DNA from: Branchiostoma lanceolatum
Taxonomy: Eukaryota; Chordata; Leptocardii; Amphioxiformes; Branchiostomatidae
Length of the DNA stretch: 64,000 nucleotides
NCBI RefSeq assembly: GCF_035083965.1
Contig: NC_089727.1
Span: 13,087,501-13,151,500 of the forward strand
Reading direction: 5' to 3'
Positions 12,150 through 35,269 of this stretch are shown piece after piece (within the stretch, counting starts at the first letter, position 1; each line of letters starts with the position of its first letter). The position numbers and the translations under genes were made by a program. The notes under the pieces are model-generated. The model was not told the DNA's origin, did not search any database, and worked only from the letters and a program-made list of their open reading frames with translations.

Positions 12150-12353
12150 ATGGGAATTCGTTATCATAGCGTGCTTATCTCAACCTTTGTGTCGATTTCT
12201 GTACTTCTAGGTGCTTTCGGACAGACCACAGTGTCGAACAGTGCGATTGGTTTGAAGGTGTCCCAGACTGTGGACGCCGTAGCAGGGCAGCCAATCACAC
12301 TGAAGGCTACATACCAGAGCACCCGGTCTATTGTCTCTCTCATATGGAGCAAG
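12150..12353 (+). CDS. Receptor exon 1: signal peptide and first half of Ig domain 1
   Basis: ATG at 12150 gives a hydrophobic leader (VLISTFVSISVLLGAFG). The exon then runs to IWSK and ends phase 0 at AAG|GTAGGG. The sequence before GGTGCTTTCG (TTCTGTACTTCTAG) also looks like a 3' splice site. A separate leader exon joined there is therefore a possible alternative start. Confidence 0.7.
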
Positions 12354-15300
12354 GTAGGGCTATGCATGACAAAAATGGATGATAAGAGATGATAGTTAAA
12401 GGCAGATTAAACCTAATTTCGTAAAGCATACTGCAATATGTTAGATATACCACTAAGACTAGTTCTGCCTTGTTTTGGACTAGTCCGTCGTAGATTAGCG
12501 TTGTTACAACATTTGAAATCCGCGGCGTTCTGAGATCATAGTCGGCGATGCCAACGACCTTTGACCTGTGAATCTACTTATAGTTAATAAGGTTACACCA
12601 ATATGTAAATTGCCTAAGAACGCACCTGTACAATAAGTATCCAAGTCAGCCATCTGTGGCTGCGACATACTTTTTATTGATCATGTTTATCAAAATAAAC
12701 AAATCCATTCATTCATAAGACTTGTCCTCCTAAACATCTTTGCGTAAGATCCTCAGTGAGCATCTTCATGTATATTGTCAGCAAGATTTGGTCTTTGGAG
12801 AAGAAAGTTCTTACAGATTATTAACGTCGTCTTTCTTCAATGTAGCCCTACCAGCCATGGGTAGATCATTATTGTGAAAGCACGCATGTTCAAAAGGACA
12901 TTTTTGTGTGGTTGTTAAGCTGCACGTTGCATGTTGAGAAGCTGATAAAGAAAGCATCGCCCCCATGATTGCCGTGCTCTTCAGGAATGCCGATGTATCA
13001 GCCTGTCAGTTGCGCTGTAGACATGTGCCTGTTGGCGGCATGATAAGGAAACAGTATAACCTGTGATCTACAAAATTGTTTGTTATAATCCTTTCATTCT
13101 TAGGAAAACAGTTCCGCATAATACAATTTGCTTTTTACCAGAAATCAGATATAATTTAGTTATTTCTTCCTACGTCAGTATCATATAGTACATGTAAATG
13201 TAGATCTCAGAAAGAGAATGGATGTGATTCGTAAGCTTCTGTCGAGACCTGACATGTTCCTTGTCAGATACCTGTCGTCATCTGCTCGTTATCACTTCTG
13301 CTGTCTCGTCACGAAGCATCTCATATATTGGAATCCAAAGTTGTGGAATTCGTGATTGCCGCGGAATTGTTTGGTAATAGAGGTGACAAGTGTTGGCGTC
13401 GGAGAAAAATTGCTTTTAGTCACAAAGATTCCACGATCTCCTAACATGTTTAGAATCGTATATAGTCTACTGCAACTTTCGCAAGATCTTGCCAAATCTT
13501 AACAGTCATCGCAAGGAAATGTTTTGAGATGTACCAATACCATAATTATTAGTCGTGACATTGGTTTCAAATCAACCACTCATAATGTTCTGTCAGTATC
13601 ACTATAAAACGTAAATGTGGAATTGTGGCAATGCATAGATCCTACGAAAGAAGGTATATCTAGGGTTTAAATGTACATTGTGACCTTTTCTTAGCAACTC
13701 TAATTTACTTTGTGTCATGCAGGTTTTCAACATAATGGATAAACTAGTCAACTTTTACACGAATCAAAGCAAAATATGAGAATGGGCTTCGTCTGATTAC
13801 AAGTGATAATGATCGACAATTATTAGTCCAATATCTTCAATATATTGAGGGCAGTTGTTTGCATATCATTTTTCTTGTTATTGACATATTGTCTCCATGT
13901 ATATATAAAGAGGTTTTGTTTTTGGTATGTTTGGAATTCTGGATCTCTGTGTTTTTGTATGTTCGAAGTTATTTGAACATACGATCAGTAAAGTGGTTGG
14001 AAGTGAGTAGGAAGATGGTGTCACCTGCGGGAGTGGTAGAATTAATTGTCTATCAGACATGACAGACATTCCAGGTCATGGGGTCAACGAAAGATGTTGG
14101 AGCTCGAAATTCAAAGCGACGTCTTGTTTCTAGTCTGTGTTTTCGCAGTTCAGTTTCAATATGTTACTCACGTTCGCCGTAGAGTGACAGAAAGTGATAA
14201 CTGGAAACATACAATGTTAATCAAAACCTTCTTTGCATGGTTGATGAACAACAATTAAACTAGAGGAGAAGCTGAAAATATTTCATTGAGCCGTGAGATC
14301 TAGATCTTGTAACACTTGTTGTTTTCCTTAGGTGGAAGGAGATGTCGGTGGTAGACGTGCCCCAGTCTTCGTGCATTACCCCGGGTCGGAGTACTCGTAC
14401 GGGGACCTGACGGGCCGGGCAGAGAGGATCAACGGCGTCTCACTCAGAATATCGCGGGTCAAACCCAGTGACGAGGGCTACTACGTCGTTCAGGTGTTAC
14501 TGGACGCCGTAGGGCAAGAGGAGAAGGAGGTTTACCTCAACGTTTTAGGTAAGTCATAAGTTTCCGTAAGAACTCTAAAAAAAGCTCAGTACGTATGCCA
14601 AAGATATTAACTCAGTGAAAATGTATGTCCTTCCGTTGGGTACTTGTAATTTGGACACCTTGTAATTTGTTGTCTGACACCTGTTTATGAATAGGCAGAG
14701 TGTCCTACCCCCAGACACCTTTTTTATGCTAGAAGCTGTAATTTATGACATTTTATGATTTATTGTGTAATAATTTATCTTAATTTATTGTGCCTCTATC
14801 CGACACCTTTCTAACTCTCTTAGTTCTTGATAACAACAACAAGTACTATTAAAACGCGGAGATTATTAAAAAGATGGCAGAAGTCAATACACAATTAGGG
14901 GATAAGTGAATTACGATCATCTCCAAATGTGCAGTCAACTATGAATCCGGCGTTAGACGTGCCGGCAAGCGCGTGTTCGTATATAAAAAAGCTTCACAAA
15001 TTATTTAACGGGCCTTTTGGTAGAGGTTCAACTTGTTACTTCTCATAAATATATTACAAGTTTGGCAACTTTCCTCACGCGATGGACGCGTAAATGCGAC
15101 TCTGGACCACAAAAATGAAAATTCTATAAATCGTAGTTCTGAAACATCCAACCATTGGATCAGCATGTTGCACTGAACCAGTGTAACCCTATGATGTAAT
15201 TTGTAGCAGTCAGGTCCGTGGATTATAGTTCTAATGGCTGTTACAGCTGCTCGTTTGGAAGCTTGATCATGAATTAATCGATTCAGTCAAGGGTACGTCC

Positions 15301-18300
15301 CATGGGAACCACGCCCTGCAATATCGATCTGGTCATGTCCTGTAAACTTCCTGCCTTTTGAATTAAAACAGTTCATCCCAAATGTGACCATTTGTAAAAT
15401 GTTATGCATTTTGTAGTTTACCAATTAAATGTATACATTTGTAAATAAGGAGATGTGATTTCTCTATAGATGACGTTATTGTGTTGTGTCGGCTGCTGCT
15501 AGAGGCCATGGGTGATATTTAATCTAGCCGTCCTCATGCTGTATTAATAATTCATGGTTGAGCACCTGGCGTGCCCCACAATGTCAAAATGACGAAACAC
15601 AGAAACATTGGCACAAGGCCAGAGATCCTGGAAAATACATTCCCGGACAGATTCCAATATTTGAGTCATTCTTTGACGAGCTACCTCTCTGAAGACTTAA
15701 TCTGACAACTGGTATGAATATACAAGTCTAAATATCTTATAGATATGTCAATATATTAATCTTTGGAAGACAAATTGCAATTGTAGTACAAGTCATGACT
15801 CAGAATGAACAACATCTGATCATAATTTTAGATACATGATGTCATACGTAGCAACAAAATTGTGAGCTGTTTTGAAAGCAGCAGTTGCAGTTTGAAGGGA
15901 TGTGGAAACGCTCATGAATTTATCATGTATCATCTACAGAGGTCAAAGGTTACAACCTTTACCCTTTAACGGCCTACATTCCAACCATTTGCAGTCTGGC
16001 CTGGTTTTCCAGAATTCCGTGAGATACAGGTTTCATAGTAACAACATGAATATACAACATTACTCGTCACCTCTAACTGAGAATATATAGTTTGTTTCTA
16101 TAGCCGTTACTATTAACGAGGCATTCAGTATCTACCGTACGAATATTGGCCACAATATCAACTTTGCTGGAATTTGAGAATTGAGAGTTGAATAACAGTG
16201 TGTATATGTGAATCATCAACAGAAATATAACATATCAATTAAAATAATGACACTTATTTCAACAAATTATTTCAAAAGTACATCCATATGCGAAGATGTG
16301 ATGAATTTAGAGATTTTCAAAGACATGGTTTGGTTCCATCTTCTTTTGTAATTAAGTCGTGTAATTGCGCAGCCCCATCGGACTTAGCTTTCTTCTCAAA
16401 GAAATGATTCAAGTGAAACCGGCCCATTCCACCGGGACCGTGAAAAATCCCCGGCTCATCCAACCCGGCTATAATTAATGTGGAATGCGTGACATTCCAA
16501 CAAATGTAGGAATATGCCGCTGCTCACCGGGGATCTGCCTGTCTTATCAACATGCTGATGTATCGATTACACCGCGTCAAACTTTCCACGGTGGCAGTAG
16601 CGCAGGGCTGATGCTAATGCTGATCTACAACATTTCCGTGGTAATGTTGCCATCTATATTGTCAGTCAGTGTAGCCTCAGTCCAAGGCAGGCTCGACGGC
16701 TGCCGCTTTGAAAGAGCATTTTTGATGATTACCTCCGTAACAAGGGACTTAAAGGTGGTATTGTTTTCAGTCCATGTCTTTGTTTGTCTTGCTGTTCGTC
16801 CGTAGTTATTTGAATATATATCTGTAAAGTGACATGGTGTAGCCGGAGACTGGCAGGATGGGAAGGTTGGCTTGGTCCGGGTCCAAAGTAGGTCACACGG
16901 ACTGACAGGAAAATGCATGCAAAGACAGAATTAGTGAGAAATTCACAATAATGCATAAAAGAACAAATTCACAAAGACTTGACAAATATTTGACGGAGGT
17001 ATGATATGTCAGAAACCAGTGCTGTCAGAAATATATGACAGCAGCCAGAGAAGGTCATCATCATCAATGTCAAAATCAAGCCATTCGCCGCAAAGCCTGG
17101 TATGGGGGCTACGTCGGTGTTCCCAGAGGTCATGTGCAATACGTTGAGATTTGAGCAACAGCTAGGCATATATATGTCGGGTCGCGGGAAGCAGCGCGCG
17201 CGCATTCCTGTGATGAATGGGGTGAGCGAGTAAAACTTCACCCGCATTGTGACTGTCAGTAATGATGATCATCACATTCTAGTACCAACCTTCCGTACGA
17301 CATACCGTTGCAAAAGGTCTTCCGCAGAGTACAAGTAATAAGGAAATCCCGGCCACGGCGTTATAGTAAGACCTTATGAATTTTTACGGTCCCCCGACAA
17401 TAATATGGGCCCCTGCTTCGCTTCAATTCATATGGCCTGTACATAAAGACCATAATTCCGTGGAAAGAAAACCAAATCGATACGTTACAATGGGCGCGTG
17501 GATCAATAGCTCGTTTGTATCAATCGAGGCCTGGGGAAACATACGACAGCTAGATAATGTAGGCTTTCTAACTATCATGACACTGTGAACTCGATCCAAG
17601 TCTCCTATATAATAACACGTATGATCGTGATTCATTGTTTTAACGGTTTAATGTCCTCACGGTTTTAGAATATTAGGTATCTTGAATATATCACGACCGT
17701 TTCTTTTCTTTTTTAAGTGACACAGTCAACAAAAACGACAGGAAGAATTCATCATATCACCTTGAAAGTCCTTTGTTGATCGTTGATTGAGGTTGACACG
17801 GAAGCGCGGGTACGCTGGCCTGTATCAGGGTACCTTGGTATTCTGTGCGTACATGTGTATGGCAAGGTGACTGCAATGTCATACACTGTCCAGATTCCAT
17901 ACTTTATTGACGATTTGGAGAGCGTGTGCATTAGTCTATCTGTATCCGTATCTTTATGAGTCACCGGCGTGACACAACAGCTGTAATATATCGTACAATT
18001 TATCATCGCGGCATCAGCTAAGTTCGGATTTGTTTAAAGCTATCTAAATCTAGTGACCAGGTCCCATCGTAACGTAGTGAGAGGGTACTTTAGTTTTATT
18101 GACAGCCATTTTGTCACACCAATGCTAAGTCCTGAATATTTTTGTTCTTGAATTTAACAGTGTTTGCTAGAAATCGTCGCAGTTTTCAGTAACTGAGCAG
18201 AGACACTGCGTAGCTACTAACTAACCCCTAGTGCCGACTAGTGGTTAGCGACATCACTACTAGGCCAGAGGGTCGAAAGTTTGCATCCCGTATGCTGTGG

Positions 18301-21300
18301 CTGATCCATTATTGACAAGAAAATTGTGCAGTCCCTAGGACGAGACGTCGATATTTTTTTTACCAGATGAAAACAGTAAAGCACTAGAAGGATTTGGCAA
18401 AACACTGAAGTGTCATATTCTGTACATAGCACCTGGCGTTCCCAACAGAACAATAACCATTTCAGTCAACAAAATTGGACTAATGTATACTTTTACCTCC
18501 CCTCATCCACCGTGCCTCATCATAGTGTGTTATGCAAAGCTAGATACCATCATCAACAAGACCTTAGTTGATGTGAACGGTTGTACCATGTATTTGGTAC
18601 TCTTCCCCTGTAACAGATCCCCAAATGGGATCAAAATTTCAAATTCCATCCCCCAAATGGGATCAAGATTTCAAATTCCCCCACCGCCCGCGTACATGTA
18701 TGCAGCCTTGGTGTGTGATAACCGTGTTGGTCAGCCAAGTGTTAAAATCAATACAGACAGGCTCAGCCTAAGTGGATCACAGGAACACTACATCTTATCA
18801 CGCCCGTTAGACATCAAATGCATGCTTCAGCACTTAGGTTAGGCAGGGCTTTCTCCCAAGACGTTTCGCAGTACTAGATTTTCTTGACAGGGCTCTAAAT
18901 TTACACTGGCCCTCTGCCTATTAAAATGACATTTGAGGTTGACCAGGGACAATCAATAACTGCACACTTCGGGACAGATTTTTGTACAACAGTAGACATC
19001 TAAATGTGGTCCCAGGAGTAAACAATTCCCAAGAAAACCACACAGGGAACCGATAAGATCTGGTCTCTGTGGACAGGTGGTCACTTTAGACAAGATTCAT
19101 GATGCTTGTGTCGATGTGGTCGACATTGACCAGGTGGCACTTGTACCGGTTTGACTGTATCTATGTGTTGGAAGATCATACATCTAATGCAAAAAGCCTT
19201 CCATCTCTCCAGAATCACTTCAACAAAATTCGTTCTCACTGTATGCGGTACCATTACAGTATAGTTACAAATAACAACTTTGGACAGTCCATGATTATAC
19301 TTTAAGACAATTGAATATCGCTTTGGGACACTTCTGGAACACGTTAACAGTAGAATTAATTTCGATGTCTGGGTATTCAACTAGTCACCCACGAACGTGC
19401 GATATTCACTGACAGGATTTTCATCCTAGAATTAAGAGCGACCTTTCCCGGAATTGGGACCACTCTTGTACCTCGCTACGTGTGACACGTGACCGTCACA
19501 GACCCGAATTAGGTAAAGTACAGATCAATAACGCAGAGATGTGGATAAAACTTCCTCAGGGATTTAACAGTCTGGGGACCATGTCAAAATACGCTTACTT
19601 GTCGATGGTGTGATCCAAGCTGCGGATCTTGTCAAAACACGTTGATTTGCCGACAGTTTCAACTTTGATACAGAATGAAATCAGTTGGCCGAACAATCGA
19701 CCTTGATCTTTATCTTCCTATCCACAAATTATTAAGTTATTGCTGGCCAAAATGTCCGGAAACACAAACAGACAAACAGAGACACATGTACACAGACAGA
19801 CAAACAACCAATAACAATACCTCAATTTTCATGGAGGTAATGATACAGGTGAATTTATGCAAATGGAAGCAAAAGGCTTCCCCAACACATCTATGAAGGT
19901 TACTACTACCAAGGATTTGCATTAAAGAGGACACAAAATAGCTGAACATCTGTATCGTTCTCTAATACCCTAGCACCCAAGAGACGAGGTCATGGACCAA
20001 AAATCCTCTACCACCGCACTTTTTCTCGTTAGCGGTGTTATTTGCCCGTGCAGGACACATAAAAGCCATATGCCAGCTCACATCACATTCCTCCGCTGAC
20101 AGCTATTGATTTTGCGACAGTCGTAAGTGAGCACGGGTCACTCGGGACGTCGTGATATTTCCATTTACCGCCAGGAATCGACCGTTAGACGTCCAAATAA
20201 CGGTCACCCGCCGGGCTGTTCGATGATCCTGGGCGTCCTTTAGTGCGGGTTACACGGTGTAAGGGTTGGTTAGAATCGATCTGTTTGCTCACTGTTGTCT
20301 GCACAAAGGGGCTCTACATGGGGGGATCCTGGCAACGCTTAACGGTAAATTTAGGAGGGCTTGCAACGCTAACCGATAAAGTCAGGAAGGCTGGTGAATT
20401 GACGCGCAGTCATAGATCCTATACGCACTACGCTAGATTCGGATAACGTTATAGTATCCATTGGTAAAACTAGACTGCGACCACCGGCACAACCAGATGC
20501 TCTTCTGTGACTCTTGACGTTTAACTACGCGATGCTACTACGCGAGTTTGTCAATAACCCTTTAACGATGACTTTTGGATGACAAATAACGTGCTACAAC
20601 CAATTAAAGCCACCAATTACGCTTCACGAATAATGTATCGACAACGCTAAACGTTGGATTAGAGCTGGCAAACTACGCTTACGATTAACGGTGAATTGAA
20701 ATACGCGGGATAGGCATGGCCAACCCCCCTGAACATATTATGGTCTACGCCACGGCACATCGCTGATCGGTGCATCTATCGGGTCGAAAATAGAAAAGGT
20801 TGTTTATTGAAGGCACCGCTGGTGGACAACGCAAATGGCTTTAATTAGCTCCGAGCGCTTTTGAGGGCAACACCACGCGTATTGTTCATTGAGTAATGGT
20901 AGCGGTGGGATTGGATATACAAATCTTTAGATGAAGGCTAGTCTTTGTGGGTGGTTAAATTGTGTTGGTAGTTAGACTGTGGTAAAACAATACTGCTTTC
21001 AAAGTCAGGTGCTGAAAATTGACATAGCTAGTTAGAGAACCACACATGAGGTGCTTTCCAATTAAAAGAATGTGTGTTTCGCGAGAAAAAAATGTATGTT
21101 TTGGAAAATACCAACATTACATCGCTGTTATTCTTTGCTTCATTTTCCTGCCTGTTTTTCTCTCTCTCTGTCTATCTCGAAGCAATGACAGAAACGTTGA
21201 TTTTGGGCCCGATCACATTCATCGTACGATCACAAACTGAGGGCATTCTTGGAATAGTGCATGTGTCGTACAGAATGCAGCAGTCTTGTTACGGAAAGGA

Positions 21301-24300
21301 CTGTATTAGACCCTGGCGGTTGGTTCTGTCACAAAATTGCTTGAAATTCTGCGACATAAAAATTGCTTGAAATTCTGCGACATAAAAATCGTACGACGAC
21401 CTACGACGATCGCACCGTTACGCATTTTTGTTGTTGCACTTTTATTTAAAAAAATCAAACAAAACCCAGACCAGATCAGTTCCATATCATGATCATATCG
21501 GAAATGTAGCAGGTCGTGCCAATTTTCTTCCATTATTTTCAACAAAGCCCCTTGATATGAAATCAATGGTTTTCAATTGCTATGTACCTCCAGGTTTATT
21601 TGCTTGGACAATTTCATGAATAGAAATAGAGTTGGGGTCGCTCCACTTGACGATAGGTCAAAGTAACAAAACTGCGATTCGACAGAAATTATAATTCTAA
21701 AACCTCGACTTAAAATTGGTTATAATTTCTGATTTGTGCTGCCTCAGACGATGAAGCCACATTTTGATAAATACTATTTGTAGTCAGCTATTCTGAGGCC
21801 GTGTTTTTGTTGATGATACTAGCATCTAAATCGAAATATCATTTCATCAGTTACATTTTGCGAGGTCACCTGTGAAATGCAAAACAAGAGTTCGGAGATC
21901 GCATGCCTCAATGACATATTGAGAGTTTCTCGTATGGCTGGTTTAATTGTATTTCATCGATTATGCAAATAAGGTTTATTACATGAGTCCATTGATCACT
22001 TCCCATCACACTAAGATGAATGTGATTGACATATGAGAAACAGACCAAAAGCAACGGCTCCCCCTGAATTAGTAGTCTCTTCCATTGACTACATGTCTGA
22101 TACTTCCAGTCACTCCACAAGTCTGACCTTTGCAGTGACCCTAGTGGTCTTCACACTCACTTTCTGCCAGTCAACTGACAGTGTGTTTGAATAACTACGG
22201 ACACACATGAACATAACAGACAGACGGACACACCGTGCAATGAGGTGATTAAAGGCGTCACTATTCGCAAGGGAATGTATTTCTCGACAAGATTTTGATA
22301 GTCCTTCCGGATACTAGCTGTGTCATTAAACTGTCCCTTCTTTCTTTTCTTCATTCATCCAGAGCCCCCGAAGGTGTATGTCGGCCCCGGCAGCCCGTAT
22401 GTGGTCCGGTGGGGGAAGAACATCACCCTGTCCTGCAGGGTCAAGGCCAAGCCCGAGATCACCAACCTGTACTGGGAGAAGGACGGCCTTCCTGTGCGGT
22501 CCTTTCCGCGGAGCAAGAAGTACAGGTACGTCAGAGGAGATGTGCGAAATGCTACTCATGAGCCAGTAAGAAATTGAACAGGATTATTTTGTGACGGGAA
22601 TGAAAGAGGCCATCTACAGCTATATTAAGCTAGGCACACCAGCCATCACCCAACGGCATAAACTTCCTGACACTCTTGACGTCCCGTGTCCGAAAGGTCA
22701 CGTGTCCAAAGTGATTGGTCATGCAAACCTGCTGAAGGCTGCAGCACGAACAGCCGAACATTCTATGAGGGTTTTTTTTCAGACTTATGATACAGTTGCA
22801 GATGTTTATGATTACTTACAAAATAATCGTGCCATCCTAGTAACGACAACAACACCCTCCCCCCTCAGTGCCGCTCATTTTGTCCCCTAGGGTTAATGGA
22901 CTACTCCTTATTATTGCATAAAATACACTGACAAATCAGCAAATAAACGGATTCTACTGTATTTGATTTTTGTTCTACCTCCCCAGAGGAGGGAACATGA
23001 GGAACCCGAACCTGCACGTGATCAACGTCGGCAAGACGGACGCAGGGAAGTACGGCTGCGTCATAGATCACGTGGTCGAAAGTACCAGGGCCACTCTTGA
23101 CCTGGAAGTGCTCTGTAAGTACCCATGACATCTTCTTGTAACAATATGGAGACTAATGTTGTATTCGGTAAACAATTTTTAAGGTAAAATATCGATGCTA
23201 CTGTTCCTGTTCTGAAATATCGCACAATCAAGAGACCAATAAATGTTCTGTATTGAATGCAAGAAATACTACCGTTTATTTTGTTAGGTAGCACTAGGTG
23301 TACGGAAGTGAAAGTACACATGCTTTCATCCGAATGGAAACCTTCAGTGTTATATTTCATTTTTTTGCTAATTTTTTTAACAATTGATTATAATTTAACC
23401 TTCCCTATGATGCAATACAAGTTAGAGTAGTGTAGGTACCCTCGCCTATTTCATAAATCGGTTTTTAATTGGTATCAGGACAGAACGAGGTAGGTATCTT
23501 ACAAATAAAAATGTCCACTGAGAAAAAAATGCCGTAAAAAGCGTCAGCAACCATTCCACATTTGCTAGCCGATGTCTTTTTTTTAAAAAGTTTTGATGAC
23601 TGTATGTAGAAAGCTCGCATTTGTTCCTAGATTTGATTGCTGCCGGTATAAAGCTCACAACACATATCCCAATAAACCAGCCCTGCTTTAACCCCGTGAT
23701 GGATAACCGGGATGCTTGGAACAGATGGCACGTCATCCATTATAGCGTGTTCCCTTAAGCCTCGCACAGGTGTCATTTTGCAAGCAGCACTTTAAAAAAC
23801 GATCACTCAACCTTTATCGCGCTGGGAACCGTTCGGAGAACATCGGTCATCTGTACAGACATGGATATTCGTGACACGTAGAAATGAAGGTGTAGGTTGT
23901 ATATTTGTTAGTTTCTGTATCACACAGTCTTAAATCCCAGTGAAGGGTCGTTTCTTTTATATGATTTAAGTGTCATTTCCCAAGCAGTACTTTAAAACCG
24001 ATACATTGCTGAACTAAACACGTGTACGCATTCGTGGCACGTAGAAATGAAACAAAAGGCTGCATACTTGTAAGTTTCTATATTTCACAGTCTTGGAACA
24101 CCAGGTGAGCGAAGACTGGGTGCAACGTTTTTTATGAGTTAAGTGTCAGTTTGTAAGCAGCACTTGAAAACTGATAATATATTGCACAACTATGGACGAA
24201 CACAAGTTCGTGACACGTAAAAATGATACAACGGCTGCATTATTGTAAGTTTTTATATTACACATTCCTTAAATGCCAATGAAGGCAATCATCTCCTTCT

Positions 24301-27300
24301 GCGGGGTGGAACATTTTTGATATGATCATTTTGCAGGCAGCACTTTAAAAACGATAACATCGCTCATCTGCACACGAACGCACATTCTTGACACGTAAAA
24401 ATGTATTAATTGCAAAGAGAAGTGTTCTTATAAGATTGAGCTTTATTTTCGTATCTGCAAAACTGAAATCGCAGTAAGGGCGGGGTGAACAAGCGTGCCG
24501 TAGTGAACATATTTTATTTGATTAAAGCACAGAAAAGGTGGGTTCTATACCAGGATCATTTTCCGCTCCCACCGACCCGTTATTGAGCTCAATCTCTGAT
24601 CTGTCCTGTTGCATGTCGCATCAATATTCTACCGGTGATTTCTTTATATCCTAAGACTTATTATTTCGGCCTAGTACACGGGTGTATATCCTGGTTGGCT
24701 TGGTTCCCGTAAAAGTTTGTGAATTGTGATTGTTTTCCCCACCTCCCTATAGATATTGTATTAAATTCTCAGTCTTTGATTAACGGTCCGTAAATTTTGC
24801 GTTGATTATCTTCGATTCTGAACTGCTTTTCTTTCGCATCACATTTTTTGTGTTGAAAATGATAAAAATAGGATTCTTTTGGTTTTCCCCTGGGTACGAA
24901 TATAAGTTCTTATTGACTTGATATTCCCGCGACACTGTTGTTTTATATATACACGTCTGGTGGAAGAACAAGTTTTATTGGAAGTTGATTTGCCCAGAAG
25001 GTGTGGCAGTGTCGGTGGACATGACCCTCACCAGATGAAGTAATCCTACACTTGGCTGGTGCAGTGATTAGTACCACAGACGGCTTTGGGACAGACGGAA
25101 TATTACAGCCTATAAAGGCAATAACACGCCAGAAATGATTGGACGGAAATTTGATTTTCTTTGCCAGGAAAGTTTGACCTTCTATTCACATGAGAAAGTA
25201 GGGACAACAGACACAACACAATAAGGTCTGTTTGTGTCTGTCGGTACCGTTCAATCTAGTGATGTTTAAATTACTATGTATACCGATAGTACCACAAATG
25301 GCTATACTTTGGGACTGATTGTTGTTTGTTTGTTTGTCTGTTGTTTTGTTCATTCATTCATTCGCACTAAGAAAGCATAAACAGTAAAGAAATGAAATTG
25401 GCAAAAAAAGCAAAGAGCATGAGGAGAAGCCTGGAAGGGCTTATACCAATCCCTTCTCCTTTAAACTTAACAAATACTAATAACAATACTAATGAAATAA
25501 TTCTCAGATGAATTACAAGAATATCTATTAGATATTACAAAAATCTACTACAGTTCAATGGATTGTGAAATATGCATATCCAATTAATCGGATCCAATGT
25601 AGAATCCTTTCAGGGCAACATTTGGAAAAGATTGAGAGAATTATGATGTTAGCAGTTGTTAGCGAATCCTCAGGCTGGTGCAGTATTTGCTATATATATA
25701 TACAGGTATCGCATACGGCTTTGGAACAGACGGAATATTAAAACCTTTGGGCAATAAACCGTCAGGAAAATATGGACAGAATTCACGGAAATATAATAAT
25801 GTGTTTTCAATCAAATCCCGGTCTTCCTTATATTCTAGCAAGCGTATCGGATGTAGAATACAAAAACAATTAAATCCACAGTTGCATAGCTATTATATAA
25901 TTGTTCCAGTTCCCAGTAGGACCACATCAGACTACTGGATAGATGACATATAAAAGCCTCTCATGCAATAACATGGCAGGAATGTATGGATGGAAATATT
26001 ATGTACTTGATAGCAAATCCTGGCCGTTATATTCCCTCAGGACATTTTGCCAAGGCCAACAGACGGACAGCCCTGATGTACAAATAGTTGTTAACATGGA
26101 AAATAGTAACTACTTCTCTAAGGCTGCCCCAAGTCACGATTTCCCATCCTTACATCTACTTGGGGATTAGAAGAGTACCGAAATGTTGGCACAAGTATTT
26201 CTGTTTGTTGTTCAAATTCTACCTGTAACTATGACACAAAATTATTCTAAATTCCTAAATTAAGTTTTAATTGAAATAAAATTAATGACAATCCACGCTC
26301 AGATTTTTCCAAACGTCTTAAATGCGTACATTCTCCGTCGCAGGGCCTCGCCCGCGGACTACTTTGAACAGACTCTCCTACACCGGGCTGAGGTTTGCAT
26401 TTTTGTGGGCGTGACCTCTGTCAGCCAATCAAAGAATCGCCTTAATGATTTCTTCAGGTAATGCCGATTCTGTGATTGGCTGACAACTGATTTGAGGCCA
26501 CGCCCACAAATTGCAAACCTCAGTCTGGTTGAGCAGAACCACCTCAAGGTATACTGTAACGGCCTTGGGCGAGGCTCTGCGTAGGAGGATGCTGAAATAC
26601 AGCCCTTCTCATTTAAATCAGGTGTAGGGAACACACTGGGGAAGCTGTACATCGATCCCTGTCAGGAGCCACAGCTGTATACTTGTTTTGTGACTGATGC
26701 ACTGCTCCGTAATTAAGGCAGGCACGGAGTCCACACTAAGTAATTTCATTGCTTCTGGAACATGTTTTGAAGAATAAAGAGGTCAAGCTAAAGACTTGAA
26801 TCTGATAATGTTGACGACTCCTTGAAACTTTGTTTACAAAGATACAGACTGACAACGGTATATGTGTTCATATTTAACGGCATTTGTTGTTGCTGTTGAC
26901 CCATTTCAGCCTAGTGCAGTAGTGGCACATAAGACAGCTAATTTCATATATATGTAGCAGGATTTTGTAACTACATGTATACAGTGAGTGGCGAGTTGCT
27001 AGCCATTCACCCAACAATGTAAGGTTGGTATGTATGCAAGGTTCGGAATGGATAATATCAAAATGCGGATACAATCACTTTTTTTTCGCGAACCAACAAA
27101 TGGAATTATTGTGGCCCGAGGGTGCTCCACAGTGCAGGGACTTGTACCGTTGTTCAGCCTCTAGATGAGTGATGACTGTGCGCTAGAGTCAAGGATGCGG
27201 GCCCCATAATAGAGTTATATTACACACATCACACCATGGGAGCTGATATTACCCTCACAGAACGGCGCATTACTTCTTTATTAATAAGGGAAGAAATCAA

Positions 27301-30300
27301 ATCCTGTTCAGGTAGACATCAATAATAAAAGTTTGACATATATCATTGTAATACTTAAAACTTGCCAAATCTTATACATTGACACAATCTTTTATATGAT
27401 TGTGTGCAGATTTGTGTTGACTACCTTTAATAAACCGACAATGTAGTAATCGATAATGACTAAACAAACAGCCCAAAACTGGGTCTTGATATAGCTTTCC
27501 AAGGAAATAAATCAAAGAAATCCGTTTTCTTCAAGATCAATGACTCAATGGTTAAGTATTCGTTACCTTCGTATGCATCACCATATAACAATATGAATGT
27601 CAACAATCGTAAACATGTATTCGGTAGTGATTGGTATTATATGAATCGCTATACGAGTCGTATATTACAAATTACGTCAAAATATGTATTTTTCGATATT
27701 CCTAACTGTCGTTGTGTGGTTCTTGGTGAAAAGACGGAATAGACATTTTGTCGAAATACTCAAAATTGATTTATAACAGTTTGAACGAAAGAGGTCAAAA
27801 TGTCGGCATGGTGTGACTTTTGTAAGTGTCAAAATACACGTTCACATTGTCAGGTTTATCATGACTCATGTCATAATTCATGTTGTATTATCTTAAGCGC
27901 CTTCGGGCATGTATACGAACACGAACGAATGAATGAATGACACTTTATCATTGTGTCATGTATCTTACGATGCCTAGCCCGCATTTAGCCTGTGCGTGAC
28001 ACCGTTATTGAAATACAAACTTTGTGAGGGTTTAGCATACCATATAGAACTGAGATGGCAACGAAAGGATGTATAATATGTCTTAAACTAATCAAACACC
28101 AACTCATGATCATGAAGAGTTTGTTAATTTAGTTTGATGAATCACTGTCTTCTATTCTCCCTTCATACAAAGAATTGAGATGATGACGAAGGAGGTATAA
28201 GGAGGTCTGGCTAACATTCCTTACGATCATTAAGAGTTTGTTTGCATTTTTGTTTGCATGTTTAACTATAAATCCTTGTATCTTAATTCCCTCTAGACCC
28301 CGCTAGCATCACCAGCCTAACGGAGTCCGTGTCCGTAGCACTGACCGACACCATCACACTTCAGTGCTTCGCAGACGGAAACCCCGAACCTAACATCACA
28401 TGGACCAAGGAGGGAGCGCCGGTAGAGCGCATGCGTGAAATCCAGACTTTTAGTAAGGGACTTCGCGCAAGCGCCCTCGTGCTCAACTACGCGGAGAGGA
28501 ACGACAGCGGGAAGTACATCTGTACGGCGAGTAACGGACTGGGGAAACCGGACGTACGGACACTCACGCTCAATGTGGAGGGTACGGATTTCTTTCTTAC
28601 CTTCGTGTACGGAGGTTTTGTTTTTGGTATATCTTGTGTGTCCGTTGGTAATTTGAATGAGGTAGAATGGCAGGAATTTAAGGGGAAATGGTGTAATTGC
28701 GGACTGACAGGAAGTGGAGGTCAAATTTGACACCACTTCACCCTGTCAGGTTGGAGGAATCAATCAATTTCCTCCCTGATCATGATTATCCCTATGTCGA
28801 AATACACAAGTTAGCACACTACTAGATTTGCCAGTAGCAGGACCGTGAAGTATCGTCAACTTTTTTACTGACCAACAGTGTATTGTATGTCTTGAAAATA
28901 TGATAATGAGAAGGCAAGACCATACGAAGGTTCAATTGTCAACAAGTCCAACGACATTATGTCAAAGATGCTCGTATATCTTCACAGCAAAGTTTTGATG
29001 CACCAACTATACACAGCACAATTTTTGAATGATTTTGGAAGCAGATCAGTAAAATCCTGTGTTCACTGTAAGAAAAATTTCTCAAACGATAAGAATCTTG
29101 TTCTCTGGTTTAGGTGAAGTCACACTGAACAGCTATATCCTTGCTACATTTGAGGTTTCTTTCGTATGGCGTACTAGTATATTGAGATCGGTAAGGAAGT
29201 TCAAATGATATACGGTGAGAATCAGTAAAAGCCCGTATTCAGTGTAAGAAAAACATGTATCAGGCGATAAGGATCATGTAGAAATGCTGCAGTTTCTTCA
29301 TGCACTATGTATTGAGATCACAACCCTTCCACATTCATACATGTGTATGAGAAAGTTCAAGTGATTAAAGATGTGGCCCCCTTCGTTCGCTGTGAGAAAC
29401 ATACATCAAACGATAAGGATCTAGTTCCGACCTTGTAACTTGTAGGCGTACGTGCTTTGAACATCCAAATCTGTCAAAAATCCTATAGGAATCTTGAGTA
29501 CCTTAATATTTTGCGGCGCACATTATATCATGAAAAAGCCTGTTTGATTTTCTCTATGACAATGCCTCGTTGGTAATGATGATGCATTCATAGAACGAGC
29601 ACTGTGGTAGTGGGTGGATCGCAAGTTAAAATTATTTCCAAATGTAGAAAAAAAGATAATATCTTATTTCGCCACGCACTTAGGAGAAAGTGCAATGAAC
29701 AGCTACGTGTGTGTCCCTTCCCCCGAGTACTTGTGCACATAAGCAAGTGTGAGAAGGTTCGCATGTTGTACAATATGTTGCAATTTGTATACGACCCTTC
29801 AATGTGAGAAAACGTGCCCTGAGCAGCTACACGTGTGTCCTTCCCTGCTGGTATGAGCAACTGTTAGAAGCCTCACATGTTTTACGATATGTTGTATACA
29901 TTCCTTCGATGTAAGAAAACATGCATCAGACGATAAAGATCTTGTTTCTCCCACTTGTAGGAGAACGTGCCCTGAACAGCTACACGCAGATAGCGATCTT
30001 TGCCGGGGCTGCAGCCGGCGGCGCGTGGCTCATCGTCTGCATCATCCTCGTCATCGTCTACGTCAGAAGACGGAACCAACAGAGGCTCAGGGACGACTTC
30101 GCCTACTACTACGCCGTCGGACGCCGCCATTTTGAATACCTGACGAAAAAGGAGCTGCCGCCAATCCCACCACACGCGGCCGCCGCCCAACAAGCCAAGA
30201 AGATGCCTAAAAACGCAGGTGTGTGTCAGCTACCATATGCATGATTCTGGAGGTCATCAAGACAATGTGATTATTTTTCAGATTATCCTCTTACTTTTAT

Positions 30301-32631
30301 AAGAGCTCTTGAGATTTATGATTTAGTCCTATTTATCGGTAGCTGACAGGTCGGATTAAGTGTGGATTTGCATGACAGTTGGAGTGTTTGTCAAAACAGC
30401 AAAAAGCTGATTTCAGTTCCATACAACGCGTAACGAACAATTCCTGCCTTCATAGCCTTCATCAGGTTCGAATGACCAATCAGTACGGACACGTGACATC
30501 AGGTTATACAGGTACTTATTGTAAGGTTGACTCAGCCTCACACCGTCTGTTTAGGCAAAGGACGAGATGTGCTTATTATGAAATGTTCCATTTCTTTTCA
30601 AGGGAATGCGTCCCTCCTTCTCTTGCAAGCCAGGGAAGGCATGTGTCTGTTGGACAGACCGATTATAACTGATTCCTATCGTCTATTTCCATTGAGTCGA
30701 CAGGCTAGCCGGAGTGGTACAAAAGCAGTTCAAGTATGCCTCCCGGACGGAGGGCTGCTGGTACTAAAAGCGTCCCTTCGTTTTCTGAGGGAACTCGTCC
30801 CTTCCCCTTCTCTTACAGGCCACGAAATGCATGTTTCTGTTGCTTCTGTACTTTGAACTGCTTCCTATCGGCCGTTCCAGTGGGCAGGTTAGCCCGGGTG
30901 GTGCACAGGTGCGCGCCCAGGCGGAGTGTGAGCTGCCAGAAAAAGTACCCTTCTTTTCTGAAAAGAGGACGCGCTCCTTCTCTGATACTGATACTTTATT
31001 ACCTCCATTAGCTATCATACAGTGAGTATGTAGCTACTCTTCCTGGAGTACAACACACATACATCTGACAGACTACATAGACTTACTACATCATCATTTC
31101 TCCATCTCTTATAAGCCAGGAAATTAAATGTATCTTTCTGTTGTACACGCTGATTCTAACTACTTCCTACCGTTCCAGTGGGCAGGTTAGCCCGGGTGGT
31201 GCACAAGTACGCGCCCCAGGCGGAGGACGAGCTGCCAGAAAAAAAAGAACCCTTCTTTTCTGAAAAGATGGACGCGCCCCTTCTCCATCTCTTATAAGCC
31301 AGGAAATGTTACAGTATCTTTTCGTTGTACACGCTGATTCTAACTACTTCCTACCGTTCCAGTTGGCAGGTTAGCCCGGGTGGTGCACAAGTACGCGCCC
31401 CAGGCGGAGGACGAGCTGATGCTGGAGGTGGACGACGTGCTGGAGATCGTGAAGACGGACGAGGGAGGCTGGTGGGTCGGCTACCTCAAGGGCAAGCTGG
31501 GCCTCTTCCCCTTCAACTACGTGGACCTACTGCCTGAGAAAGGTACGGTACGTCCGTGCCGTGTTGTATACCCGTAAACAGCTATCTTGGCGTGAAACAC
31601 ATCTTTTGAATGTCACTTTCCTTTCTTTATTCATTCAGAACAAAAACGAACATAAAAACATATGAGGAAGGAATATGACGTACAAATGTACATAGAACAG
31701 TAGTTTTTGCTAACAGTGAAATGGCATCGATCAAAATGGTATGAAGGTTCACATTTTGTGCTGGGATTACTCAATTTGTTTGACGTGTGGCAATATTTTC
31801 TCCAATCTATGTAGGTATTTAATGAAGGCGACAAGCTTATCGCTAGAAGGAGCTGACGATATTTGAGATGGTTATGTTGCGTAAAGAAGTGATTTGTAGT
31901 CATTGTACATCATGCTGATGAGTCATGGCAATGAAATATCATTCCCACAGCCACCATGGGGAACGGGAAGGCCAAGTCCCCCCTGAGAGCGGACCTGACG
32001 GACTCGGAGTACCAGGCCCTGGACGCGCCCGAGAAACAGGGGCCGCCCGGCTCAGAGAGGGTAAGGGTAAGGCAACTCACTTTCTTCTTCCTTAGTACAC
32101 TAAGAAGTGGTAAAATGTTTAAGCAGCGATCAGCTTTAGGGATCAGATTGGGTCAAATTAGGGAACAGATGTAGCGTTGAAGGGTGTGGCACTGTGCGCC
32201 AATCTATACATTGACAAGAAAAAAAGAACAAGAAACAATGCTTGACAGAACGTATCTTTTGTAAGAAATTTTCTCACCCCACGAAACCTCAATGATCTTT
32301 CTTGATCTCTTTTTGATGTTACATACATTTAGAACAGCGCAGAACAATTATGACATCATTGGAGATCGGTCAATAAGATATTCTATTGTAAACAGCTGGC
32401 CTCAAATAAAAAGGCCTGAATAATTCGTATAAACATCTACTTTGGTCGCATGGTCGTTTGATAAATCAATATCGTCTAAATGTAAATGTTCCCGTATTTT
32501 TTTCCCTACAGGACAGCATATCACTCCCGGAGGCTCTGACGGGAGACTCCTTCAGCAAGGCCACCACGCTGGTCGCCGAGAAAAAGGAAAAAGACAACCC
32601 GAACCTTCTTGCATGTAGCGGGAACAGATGA
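12150..32631 (+). CDS. Ig-domain transmembrane receptor with cytoplasmic SH3 domain (9 exons, 554 aa)
   Basis: Coding exons are 12150-12353, 14332-14548, 22363-22525, 22987-23114, 28297-28581, 29961-30218, 31363-31542, 31951-32060 and 32512-32631. Every junction has GT/AG borders, phases agree throughout, and the total is 1665 nt. Residues 1-25 form a signal peptide. Residues about 26-140 form a V-like Ig domain without the cysteine pair, 141-237 a C2-type Ig (NITLSC...DAGKYGC), and 238-332 an I-set-like Ig (ITLQC...DSGKYIC). Residues 343-367 are the membrane helix, followed by basic VRRR. The tail has PPIPP at 399-403. The SH3 domain is 422-475 and keeps Y429, W455, P468 and Y471, while the first ALYDY tyrosine is His427. 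Inferred role: surface adhesion or recognition receptor with a built-in adaptor module. The closest named family for domain 1 is CEACAM-like. The overall architecture is not one I recognise from vertebrates. Confidence 0.85.
12354..14331 (+). other. Receptor intron 1
   Basis: No gene inside. Around 13905-14060 it contains a degenerate block (TTTTGTTTTTGGTATG, then GTTATTTGAA, then GACAGACATTCCAGG). Parts of this block resemble 16755-16910 and 28605-28755, suggesting an old dispersed element. Confidence 0.4.
14332..14548 (+). CDS. Receptor exon 2: second half of Ig domain 1
   Basis: Acceptor TTCCTTAG at 14331, donor G|GTAAGT after 14548. It encodes VEGDVGGRRAPVF...SLRISRVKPSDEGYYVVQV. The F-strand D-x-G-x-Y motif is present (D115, G117, Y119) but the following cysteine is V121. 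It ends phase 1. Confidence 0.85.
14549..18229 (+). other. Receptor intron 2, first part
   Basis: Mostly unstructured AT-rich DNA. Bases 16755-16910 carry the degenerate element also seen at 13905 and 28605. No coding exon with conserved domain features was found. Confidence 0.4.
18225..18300 (+). repeat. Degenerate tRNA-like (SINE-like) fragment
   Basis: TAGTGGTTAGCGA resembles a pol III A box. About 30 bp later GGGTCGAAAGTTTGCATCCC resembles an altered B box. A functional tRNA fold is not evident. A SINE head is possible. Confidence 0.3.
18605..18680 (+). repeat. Two-copy tandem duplication, about 36 bp
   Basis: CCCCAAATGGGATCAA-ATTTCAAATTCC appears twice in succession, with a single A/G difference. 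Confidence 0.75.
18681..21213 (+). other. Receptor intron 2, middle part
   Basis: Short similar blocks (GCAACGCT-AACGG/CCGAT-AAA followed by AGGAGGGCT or AGGAAGGCT) recur at about 20332-20393. Otherwise nothing recognised. Confidence 0.35.
21214..21412 (+). repeat. CGTACGA family R2, copy 2, with internal 28-bp tandem duplication
   Basis: ACATTCATCGTACGATC, CAAACTGAGGGCATTCTTGG and TCTTGTTACGGA match 34138-34240. The block ATTGCTTGAAATTCTGCGAC is duplicated back to back at about 21336-21385. The copy then ends ATCGTACGACGACC, as at 9286. Confidence 0.65.
21885..22050 (+). repeat. Dispersed repeat family R1, copy 2
   Basis: AAGAGTTCGGAGATCGC, ATTATGCAAATAAGGTTTAT and CCATTGATCACTTCC match 4799-5010 and 56180-56380 in order. 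Confidence 0.6.
22363..22525 (+). CDS. Receptor exon 3: first half of Ig domain 2
   Basis: Acceptor CATCCAG, donor ACAG|GTACGT. It begins phase 1 (EPPKVYVGPG) and includes NITLSCRV and LYWEKDG, i.e. the B-strand cysteine and C-strand tryptophan. It carries an N-glycosylation sequon (NIT) and ends phase 2. Confidence 0.85.
22526..22986 (+). other. Receptor intron 3
   Basis: Short intron between the two halves of Ig domain 2. No structure noted. Confidence 0.6.
22987..23114 (+). CDS. Receptor exon 4: second half of Ig domain 2
   Basis: Acceptor CCCCAG, donor CTCT|GTAAGT. It encodes NLHVINVGKTDAGKYGCVID, the E-F region with the second disulfide cysteine, and ends phase 1. Phase fits exon 3 exactly. 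Confidence 0.88.
23770..24410 (+). repeat. Four-unit tandem array, about 170-200 bp per unit
   Basis: Units start near 23770, 23970, 24143 and 24325. Each opens with a variant of GTGTCATTTTGCAAGCAGCACTT, continues AAAAACGAT, then has an ACACGTA-AAATGA block about 80-100 bp later. Units 1-3 also carry a TTGTAAGTTTCTATAT-CACA block. Units are clearly diverged, so the array is old. Confidence 0.75.
26334..26587. mobile_element. Foldback (MITE-like) element
   Basis: The left arm (CGCAGGGCCTCGCCC ... GGGCTGAGGTTTGCA, TTTGTGGGCGTG, CAGCCAATCA) is matched in reverse complement by the right arm (TGATTGGCTG, CACGCCCACAAA, TGCAAACCTCAG, GGGCGAGGCTCTGCG). Arms are about 110 bp. No ORF. Sequence just right of it (26588-26635) resembles 55030-55075. 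Confidence 0.75.
28297..28581 (+). CDS. Receptor exon 5: complete Ig domain 3
   Basis: Acceptor CCCTCTAG, donor GAGG|GTACGG, phase 1 on both sides as is usual for a whole-domain Ig exon. It encodes ITLQCFADGNPEPNITWTK and ERNDSGKYICTASNGLG, an I-set/C2 domain with both cysteines and the tryptophan. Confidence 0.92.
28582..29960 (+). repeat. Receptor intron 5 with degenerate copies of the exon 6 start
   Basis: The start of exon 6 (acceptor plus GAGAACGTGCCCTGAACAGC) is echoed upstream at 29683-29712 (TTAGGAGAAAGTGCAATGAA), at 29800-29834 (AGAAAACGTGCCCTGAGCAG), and more weakly at 29108-29140 (TTTAGGTGAAG...CTGAACAGCTAT). A companion block, GTAAGAAAA-CAT followed by CGATAA-GATC-TGT, recurs near 29070, 29250, 29395 and 29910. 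The intron therefore appears built from diverged tandem units that include an exon edge. Confidence 0.65.
29961..30218 (+). CDS. Receptor exon 6: transmembrane helix and proximal tail
   Basis: Acceptor ACTTGTAG, donor GCAG|GTGTGT, phase 1 to 1. It encodes SYTQIAIFAGAAAGGAWLIV and the rest of the helix, then VRRRNQQR, FAYYYAVG, a proline motif KELPPIPPH and an alanine/lysine-rich end. The charge change (basic after the helix) sets type I topology. Confidence 0.9.
30219..31362 (+). repeat. Receptor intron 6 with three truncated copies of the SH3 exon
   Basis: Units of intron end, acceptor and exon 7 start recur ahead of the true exon. Copy B has exon-like bases 30881-30944. Copy C begins at 31179 after TTCCAG. 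A more diverged copy A lies near 30697-30765. Copies B and C run from GGCAGGTTAGCCCGGGTGGT to GAGCTG and then jump to CCAGAAAAA, matching CTGCCTGAGAAAG at the exon 7 end. The SH3 core is thus deleted between CTG triplets. Copy B keeps a GT after the exon-like part, and copy C has lost it. Confidence 0.8.
31363..31542 (+). CDS. Receptor exon 7: SH3 domain
   Basis: Acceptor GTTCCAG, donor AAAG|GTACGG, phase 1 to 1. It encodes RVVHKYAPQAEDELMLEVDD, then GGWWVGYLKGKLGLFPFNYV, a complete SH3 fold with the WW of the n-Src/beta region and the FPFNYV 3-10 helix motif. The whole domain sits in one symmetrical exon. Confidence 0.93.
31543..31950 (+). other. Receptor intron 7
   Basis: No repeat or gene seen. 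Confidence 0.6.
31951..32060 (+). CDS. Receptor exon 8: distal cytoplasmic tail
   Basis: Acceptor TCCCACAG, donor GAGAGG|GTAAGG. It encodes ATMGNGKAKSPLRADLTDSE followed by YQALDAPEK. The SEYQAL segment fits a Y-x-x-hydrophobic sorting or phosphotyrosine motif (inference only). The exon ends phase 0. Its CCACCATGGG context is a perfect start-codon context, so an internal start is conceivable but not needed. Confidence 0.75.
32061..32511 (+). other. Receptor intron 8
   Basis: No feature noted beyond the splice sites. It has a pyrimidine-rich tract, TATTTTTTTCCCTACAG, at the 3' end. Confidence 0.6.
32512..32631 (+). CDS. Receptor exon 9: C-terminus
   Basis: Phase 0 acceptor. It encodes DSISLPEALTGDSFSKATTL, then a lysine-rich end, and stops at TGA 32629-32631. 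Composition stays GC-rich like the other exons. I did not find a nearby AATAAA. Confidence 0.8.
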   Translation, partial: DSISLPEALTGDSFSKATTLVAEKKEKDNPNLLACSGNR

Positions 32632-32703
32632 AAGAAGCAAGAGTTATGAGTGATGGGAAATTGTACAGAAACTACTTATCGATACATACGCCAGGAATAT
32701 AAT

Positions 32704-32894
32704 GGTGTTTGCACGTGACGTCAGAGCCGCCATACTGGTTGGCTGAACCTGGCAGAGTCAGGCCGTTAGGTTTGATTGTGTTTTAATGTGACTGCTATCA
32801 CATATACAAATTCAAATTTACCGGGCAAGTTCCAGGTTTAACCAATCAGCATGGCGGACGATGATTGCGTCAGAGTCACGTGAGTGCAGACACC
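32704..32894. mobile_element. Short foldback element just 3' of the receptor gene
   Basis: The left end GGTGTTTGCACGTGACGTCA and the block GCCGCCATACTGGTTGG-TGAACCTGG pair with CCAGGTTTAACCAATCAGCATGGCGG and TGACTC/CACGTGAG-TGCAGACACC at the right. Arms are about 55-60 bp, with a small insertion in the right arm. Confidence 0.65.
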
Positions 32895-33697
32895 CTGTAG
32901 GGGATGTTGTGGATTTCGTGACGTGGTGTGTTTTCTTGTCCGGGGTTCACTGTCCAGTGGGACTGTTTCGGGTAGACTGCAGTGGTGGCCTAAACCGCAA
33001 GGGGGTGTACATATCATTGCGGCGGATTATCTCCAGATATTGTATAAAGCTGTCATGGATGGAAAAAGTTAATGTCTAAGTGTAAAGTGTAGGTAGACTT
33101 TGAAGAATCCAAGGCTTCCACGTCTTAGAACGCCGTTCTCAAAAAGGACATCGTTCGCAATGCTTTGTGTCGTCGAGAGGTGATATTTGTTTAGCATGGC
33201 GGCAAACGGACCTTCTGCAAATACAGACATTTTAACGCATCAATGTAGACTGTAGCTGACATGGGAACAGCAACTATGGTTAAGCTGGGTCTTTGTGGAT
33301 CAATGTCAGAAAAGCGCCATCTGACGGTCGCGTTGTGTAAATGCATATCCCTCACTTCTTGGCGAATGCCGTCTTGGATGGTTCGAAGTTGGATGTTACT
33401 GAAGTAAATGATAGTTCAAACGTGCCTGTATGGTAGAACCTGTACATACATATAGACGTATATGATGTGTCGAGGTTGTGATTTTCTCGTATGCGCACTA
33501 CTATGTGGATATGTGGTATGTTGTGCGGTTCTAAGTTCTAACCACAGTAACCGTTAGCACATACACTTCCCTGTGGTGCCTGGTAGAATATCCACGAACA
33601 CTACCCATAGACGTTGCTGTAGTACTAGAAGCGAACAAATGTACAAATTTGGGGGACTTAACGATGAACTGTAAAATCTAAGTCTTTACCAAGCTCC

Positions 33698-33840
33698 TTT
33701 TGTGGCTGAAACTTGTGGAAGTTGGCCAAATAGGGTAAATAATTTGCCAAAGGAAATAGAATTTACCTTCTATAGCCTGGCTTAAAATTATTTGCTCTAT
33801 TTGGCCAATCTTTACTATTTGTTTCAGCTTCGAAAAAAAG
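33698..33840. mobile_element. Small palindromic foldback element
   Basis: TTGGCCAAATAGGGTAAATA at the left mirrors TATTTGCTCTATTTGGCCAA at the right. The outer GGCTGAAAC / GTTTCAGCTT blocks also pair. Confidence 0.7.
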
Positions 33841-34137
33841 TCTGATAGAGACTATAAAGTCGAGTACATTATGTGTGGTGGATGTAAGCATAGACAGGCA
33901 TTAGTTAGATGATTTTGTACTATCCCTTTGTTTCTTCTCTGACATGTAAAAGATGTTACGTTTCTCTGGAAAATGGACCAAAGTTGATTAGATTTCAGGG
34001 TGTCGTTTTGTAATTTTCTATTGGTTTGCACTTGACATTGGAATTCTCTATGGATGTAACGATTTGGGTAGAACATGGTGATACTTCTGAAAGAAACGCT
34101 GTCGTGTGTTTTCTACTCATTTCTACTCTACTCACAT

Positions 34138-34260
34138 TCATCGTACGACTGTCGTACGATGGCAAACTGAGGACATTCTTGGGATAGTCGTGCAGATGTA
34201 CAGAATTCAGCTGTCTTGTTACGGACAAGGCTCTCTTAGATCCTTGTTGGTTATGTCACA
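34138..34260 (+). repeat. CGTACGA family R2, copy 3
   Basis: CATTCATCGTACGACTGTCGTACGATGG, CAAACTGAGGACATTCTTGG and TCTTGTTACGGACAAGGCT match 21214-21300. The two CGTACGA heptads lie in mirror orientation. Confidence 0.6.
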
Positions 34261-34334
34261 TTACGCTTGAATTTTCTTTTTTAACGAACTCGTTCAGTGT
34301 AAGCTAAGGCCGTAGGGGGCCACTCCTCTAAGCA

Positions 34335-34715
34335 CTGAACTAATTGTTACTGTAGCAGCATCTCTTCACCCTAGATCAGAAACATCAATGCTCGAGACAA
34401 GCATGACTTCACTGACTCATTAGGAGAAGCAGGGGTTATGAAGGCTGCTCCGGAAATTCCCTACCCCATTTTAATTTAGGCCGGATGTTCTGATCCACTC
34501 ACATCAAAATTGTGCGACTTCTGATGCGACTCGCTGTCAGGCTGTGTGTTCATACGCTTTTTTTTCCTAATCAATTCATCAGAGCCTGATGTTGCCATCG
34601 ATTTACGAAGAAAGGCGGCTCAATTGTTACTGTAGCAACATCTCGTCGCCCTAGGCCAGAAACATCAATGCTCAAGACAAGCATGACTTCACTGACCCAT
34701 TAGGAGAAGCTGTGG
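34335..34715 (+). repeat. Local direct repeat, about 95 bp per copy
   Basis: ATTGTTACTGTAGCA-CATCTC...CAGAAACATCAATGCTC-AGACAAGCATGACTTCACTGAC-CATTAGGAGAAGC occurs at both ends, offset about 283 bp, with a handful of differences. Confidence 0.8.
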
Positions 34716-35269
34716 CGTCGTGTTTAACGTTGCCGAACTTTGAAAAATTGTGCACTTTTTATTGCATGTTGATCAAACCAGCACGCACATAAAGACTCGT
34801 CAACTGATCAGATCTCGGAAAACATAATATCGAAAGGAATAATGTAAATGTTTCATTGTATCATATCTATTTCAACTTTATTCCACACACATCTGACCTC
34901 CATAAGTACATTAAGCCATCGATACGTACCAGAACTGATGCCACAAACTACACATCTAAATTTCCACAGATTTTGGAACTTTGGCTTTCAAATAGATTTG
35001 AATGGACAAATGTTCGAAAAGTCTTTTTACAAAAGAATATGACAAAAAAACTTTACAGTTCTTATTTCCTTCATCCCCAGAAACAAACAAATGAATATAT
35101 ATAGATAGAGTGGTAAATAAGCAATAGGAAAACAGTTTGTTTATAACAAGACAATGAATGAAATTATGAATGAATAATCAAATAAATGCATCTACGAATG
35201 AGTGAATGAACAGCCTTTACATATTAAAACTTTTCCACAACCCCATAAATAACAACAATGTTCTTTACC

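Follow-up and report, generated by a model that had tools for sequence, protein, structure and literature searches.

The locus and its gene model

The window, a 64,000-nucleotide stretch of the genome of the lancelet Branchiostoma lanceolatum, holds on its plus strand a gene model of nine exons, 12150 to 32631, in which an immunoglobulin (Ig) ectodomain and a membrane helix are joined to an SH3 domain. Spliced in frame, the exons amount to 1665 bases (554 codons and a terminal stop codon, with none inside the frame), and all eight introns are of the GT-AG type. Exon 1 (12150..12353), supported by its frame, its donor and Pfam, contains the start codon, a hydrophobic N-terminus and the first half of a V-set Ig domain, the second half of which lies in frame in exon 2 (14332..14548). 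Ig domain 2 is divided between exon 3 (22363..22525) and exon 4 (22987..23114), which carry its first part and its remainder by frame and Pfam, and Ig domain 3, of the I-set type, fills exon 5 (28297..28581), with its best I-set stretch at residues 242-323. Exon 6 (29961..30218) codes for the membrane helix, located by the hydropathy peak, and the juxtamembrane tail; exon 7 (31363..31542, 180 bases) codes for the entire SH3 domain, as judged by Pfam and PDB matches. The rest of the tail comes from exon 8 (31951..32060), assigned by frame and by motif patterns that include SEYQAL, and from exon 9 (32512..32631), in frame, which ends in a stop after a C-terminus, SGNR, that is not hydrophobic. 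From exon 1 to exon 9 the phases run 0-0, 0-1, 1-2, 2-1, 1-1, 1-1, 1-1, 1-0 and 0-0, exons 5, 6 and 7 being the three with phase 1 at both ends.

Base composition agrees with this model. Third-position GC (GC3) is above intron GC in every one of the nine exons (0.54-0.92 against 0.37-0.46 for introns); it is lowest in exon 1 (0.54) and reaches 0.90 in the SH3 exon, 0.92 in exon 8 and 0.68 in exon 9. Domain homology independently sets the frames of exons 1-5 and 7, and the membrane helix sets the frame of exon 6; for this reason an unbroken frame is not what chance would be expected to give. The rebuilt model agrees to the base with the limits given in the first-pass annotation of this DNA (12150 to 32631, exon 6 ending at 30218, SH3 exon at 31363-31542). 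The unbroken frame over nine exons reported there is borne out by the GT-AG introns and the 554 codons without internal stop, and the order of N-terminus, three Ig domains, membrane helix and SH3 by Pfam and hydropathy, so that, at the level of a gene model, the earlier observation is confirmed.

A search of the window for a second copy of the receptor gene (tblastn, E<=0.1) found none, the sole extra matches being two partial copies within intron 6 that are described below. No NCBIfam family matched the receptor, and neither Rfam matches nor tRNAs were found. Downstream of the gene, the plus strand contains no AATAAA or ATTAAA over 32632-35180, 2.5 kb past the receptor stop, and the first occurs at 35181.

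Other features share the window. The minus strand at 35270-46815 contains four stop-to-stop open frames of 253-314 residues that have the look of a tandem family of multi-pass membrane proteins; none has a Pfam match. A CA dinucleotide repeat of 390 bases at 44739-45128 gives rise, on either strand, to long open frames that are artefacts. The frame at 55338-55523 has a weak DUF716 match below the cut-off (E 0.017); together with the group of four it may represent a TMEM45-like cluster. A Kelch-like gene with BTB, BACK and Kelch repeats lies on the minus strand at 50050-52327, and 62105-63027 is a minisatellite array of 127-base units (6.8 copies, higher-order period 369 bases).

Ectodomain and membrane helix

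Pfam places a V-set domain at residues 38-140 (E 1e-15) and Ig_3 in three stretches (E 5.3e-33), both of which clear their curated cut-offs. Sixteen families match at E<=1; besides the V-set, Ig_3 and SH3 models these are Ig relatives and a weak match to the ErbB membrane segment. Cysteines occur in the whole protein only at residues 165, 219, 261, 313, 359 and 550. Ig domains 2 and 3 keep the usual pairs (165/219 and 261/313), and the usual Ig disulfide is absent from the V-set domain because this domain holds no cysteine. Searched alone against PDB, the V domain finds 26 sequences at E<=1, none of which reaches 0.001: nectin-3 is the best, a weak match at E 0.0019, followed by a TIM-1 homologue (0.042), VCBP3 (0.07), 2B4 (0.14) and CEACAM1 (0.83). 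The whole ectodomain matches 219 PDB sequences at E<=0.001, which are I-set proteins of a general kind (titin, DSCAM and Robo2, for example).

The strongest hydropathy peak (best 19-residue window 2.58, at 349-367) marks a membrane helix at approximately residues 343-367. A second hydrophobic peak lies at the N-terminus, within residues 6-26, and on this hydrophobicity about residues 1-24 are likely to be a signal peptide. With these two segments we infer a single-pass membrane topology for the receptor.

The SH3 domain and the motifs of the tail

The Pfam model SH3_9 matches residues 425-473 (E 1.6e-10), and SH3_9, SH3_2 and SH3_1 together span approximately 423-473. All three score above their gathering cut-offs (41.1 bits against 30, 37.3 against 21.8, and 30.9 against 22.9, respectively), and 237 PDB sequences match at E<=0.001; on these grounds a chance SH3 match is ruled out. 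The SH3 domain had previously been called complete, and this stands at the level of sequence, with the addition that the whole domain is contained in one exon.

Among the best 60 of the 237 PDB matches, the top is CD2AP (E 1.6e-14), with SH3KBP1/CIN85 at 7.6e-14; in this search CD2AP leads Myosin 1E by 5.3 bits (56.4 vs 51.1). When the query is trimmed, CD2AP or SH3KBP1/CIN85 account for seven of the 24 sequences at E<=1e-9 (ranks 1-5, 7 and 17), and the bit scores, a similarity ranking without a tree, are 52.7 for CD2AP, 50.9 for Myosin 1E (a margin of 1.8) and 47.8 for Grb2. Because Myosin 1E trails the best match so narrowly, we take descent of this domain from a CD2AP/CIN85 SH3 to be a lead and not an established result. 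In the alignments, residues expected of a ligand groove are kept, namely the Tyr of the RT loop, the Trp, the Pro and the late Asn, with Tyr at a position where CD2AP has Phe. At the groove's first aromatic position the receptor has His, where CD2AP has Phe and many SH3 domains have Tyr.

The juxtamembrane tail contains a putative ligand for such a domain. KELPPIP (30149..30169, plus strand; residues 396-402) is the only match in the protein to the class I SH3-ligand pattern [RK]xxPxxP, and 21 residues separate its end from the first SH3 strand. Against patterns that were picked post hoc, with KELPPIP already seen, shuffles of the 52-residue juxtamembrane stretch yielded the loose class I motif in 8.1% of cases, a stricter form in 1.0% and [RK]xLPPxP in 0.03%; for the 187-residue tail the values were 13.8%, 1.9% and 0.08%. 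SH3 domains of the CD2AP/CIN85 type prefer PxxxPR ligands. A pattern search of the receptor found no PxxxPR, and for this reason KELPPIP might not be a ligand for a CD2AP-like SH3.

Two further features of the tail were noted. SEYQAL (32004-32021, plus strand; residues 497-502) fits the ITIM pattern [SIVL]xYxx[ILV], whose other match in the protein is at residues 3-8 of the N-terminal leader, and as YQAL it also fits YxxPhi. The protein terminates in LLACSGNR, with Arg as its last residue, and a C-terminal PDZ-binding motif is not present.

A receptor that may hold its own SH3 domain

We propose that the protein is a nectin-like adhesion receptor in which the SH3 domain is kept occupied by the tail of the same molecule, or of a neighbouring one, until the receptors cluster, and we give this reading a probability of roughly one half. 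In such a receptor the three Ig domains would bind a partner on the adjacent cell, and inside the cell the SH3 domain would pair with the KELPPIP of the same tail or of the tail of an adjacent copy. On clustering this pairing would change, leaving both the SH3 domain and the proline motif free for cytosolic partners. For the SH3 domain these could be proline-rich actin or endocytic regulators, and for KELPPIP other SH3 proteins; SEYQAL could attract SH2 proteins or clathrin adaptors. The SH3-ligand pairing, the clustering switch and the partners are elements that we infer. If the latch is real, the receptor would be a minimal one-protein system for the switching of an SH3 domain and its ligand by receptor clustering.

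The latch is supported by the fact that KELPPIP is the only class I match, by its nearness to the SH3 domain and by the parallel with BTK (PMC8260988). It is weakened by the His in the groove, by the missing PxxxPR and by motif statistics that are post hoc, the loose motif arising in 8-14% of shuffles.

A rival explanation, which we regard as quite possible but hold more tentatively, is that the SH3 domain acts in trans only. In other words, it would recruit cytosolic proline-rich proteins, and KELPPIP would serve other SH3 proteins as a separate docking site. The nearest SH3 domains are those of CD2AP/CIN85, which recruit regulators of actin or endocytosis, and the receptor's own tail offers them no PxxxPR; a constitutive built-in adaptor of this kind has, moreover, already been suggested, in the relevant passage of PMC7286890. 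However, with a class I motif only 21 residues ahead of the SH3 domain, self-binding would need to be avoided. The first-pass annotation had argued that a receptor with this domain order would not need to recruit an adaptor first. That the receptor carries an adaptor module of its own is reasonable, but the argument was overstated, as the SH3 domain still needs a partner and a candidate ligand lies in its own tail.

The SH3 exon and its copies in intron 6

Because exon 7 has phase 1 at both ends, skipping it preserves the frame. Exon 7 also codes for an entire SH3 domain and has the same phase at both ends as exons 5 and 6, which makes exon shuffling possible; from this layout, it looks as if the SH3 domain was added to the receptor as a single phase 1-1 exon.

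Intron 6 contains three tandem copies of the SH3-exon region, all truncated and on the plus strand, and their identity to the true exon increases toward it (blastn). The most diverged, at 30614..30725, is 68% identical (E 1e-4). The second, at 30793..30935, is 76% identical and frame-shifted (E 3.6e-23), and the closest, at 31098..31234, is 95% identical (E 6e-58). This last copy has an intact acceptor, matches exon 7 at 64 of 65 bases over the acceptor, and keeps the first 56 bases of the SH3 exon before it breaks off. Within the window, nothing else matches the second half of exon 7 (blastn, E<=1).

These features suggest another explanation, which is compatible with either view of how the SH3 domain acts: the SH3 exon could be an alternative cassette, with many transcripts skipping exon 7 or using an intron-6 copy, so that most of the product is receptor without SH3 and the SH3 form is a minor isoform. 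A receptor without exon 7 would have 494 residues in the same frame and with the same stop. Translation of exon 6 joined to the closest copy (acceptor 31178) runs for 39 codons and then stops, with the SH3 domain absent, and read-through past the end of exon 6 would encounter a stop in intron 6 after 8 codons. On the other hand, the coding signs of exon 7 are strong (GC3 0.90) and its SH3 domain is uninterrupted. Searched for AATAAA and ATTAAA, the only two hexamers considered, intron 6 yields no AATAAA and a single ATTAAA at 31123; this lies upstream of the acceptor at 31178, which makes use of the closest copy as a last exon doubtful. We consider this cassette reading rather unlikely.

A more elaborate proposal, and a long shot, is a self-latching receptor in which splicing sets the signalling state, with a frame-neutral SH3 cassette that came from an adaptor gene of the CD2AP/CIN85 type, a matching ligand in the tail, and decaying intron-6 copies that serve as decoy exons and set the amount of the SH3 form. 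If this were true, the protein would represent a naturally occurring fusion between an Ig receptor and an adaptor SH3 of a type that vertebrates keep on a separate protein.

That two adjacent genes were misjoined, the first an Ig receptor that ends with exon 6 and the second an SH3 protein that begins with exon 7, is hardly credible despite the repeats in intron 6, and we reject it on phase, splice sites and coding bias: the acceptor that opens exon 7 is in phase 1, which matches the end of exon 6, no Met precedes the SH3 domain, the joint frame continues to exon 9, and a lancelet proteome holds the same domain order (Table 2 of PMC7286890).

The gene looks like a concrete case of exon shuffling: an adaptor-type module placed directly on an Ig receptor, in a symmetrical exon, with tandem copies still visible in one intron.

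The published lancelet protein

The surprise is limited, as the architecture is already in print. A Florida lancelet protein appears as 'IgV/IgC/IgC/TM/SH3' in Table 2 of PMC7286890 (Sci Rep 2020;10:9434); the passages on it describe this order as seemingly confined, by BLAST, to the genus Branchiostoma and propose that it avoids adaptor proteins. On the evidence of that paper the architecture is not common in vertebrates, the case in which the first-pass annotation would have fallen. The receptor described here has the order IgV/Ig/Ig/TM/SH3 and, compared by domain order alone, is probably the same gene. Its exon layout, the intron-6 copies and its own SH3 ligand go unmentioned in those passages on the Florida lancelet protein (PMC7286890). 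In the literature excerpts that we consulted, we located no description of an Ig-TM-SH3 architecture besides this one. The 'cytoplasmic SH3 domain' of semaphorin 6D in an excerpt of PMC10705753 was set aside, as it adjoins a 'PXXP region' and is taken to be an SH3-binding region and not an SH3 domain. The architecture is thus already known, and the gene anatomy is the testable detail that is added here. The novelty implied by the first-pass annotation did not survive this comparison, both the domain order and the idea of bypassing an adaptor having been published (PMC7286890), and its interpretation as a whole is partly supported.

Comparison with known systems

Nectins, nectin-like molecules (necls) and PVR share with the receptor a V-C-C Ig ectodomain and one membrane helix. 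A C-terminal PDZ-binding motif is a feature of nectins and necls, a Band 4.1 motif of necls and an ITIM of PVR (PMC7286890). Unlike the nectins, the receptor lacks the C-terminal PDZ motif and the V-domain cysteines and has an SH3 domain in its tail; the missing PDZ motif is the reason for rejecting it as a nectin proper. The ITIM of PVR is matched in its tail, by pattern only, in SEYQAL.

CD2AP and CIN85 (SH3KBP1) have the closest SH3 domains by sequence, by a narrow margin among the best 60 of 237 matches. CD2AP and Ruk/CIN85 are, in the source excerpts, adaptors with three SH3 domains, whereas the receptor has one, tethered to an Ig receptor. A review describes receptor endocytosis and actin remodelling as processes in which CD2AP acts by way of its SH3 domains (PMC12135550). 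The parallel with Ig receptors is not simple, however, because nephrin is bound by the C-terminal domain of CD2AP and not by an SH3, according to a title in the references of that review (PMC12135550).

For the proposed latch, a likeness is found in the Tec kinases. In BTK a proline-rich region lies just ahead of the SH3 domain and has a role in binding it, as an excerpt of PMC8260988 states, and BTK and ITK, like the receptor, have just before the SH3 domain a proline motif that may bind it. The receptor differs in having no kinase or SH2 domain and a linker of 21 residues, so that the comparison is only with how such a protein might work. Yeast Sho1 has four membrane helices and, unlike the receptor, is not known to have Ig domains. 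It is described, in the excerpted text of PMC4411306, as a membrane protein with a cytoplasmic SH3 domain, and in this it resembles the lancelet receptor.
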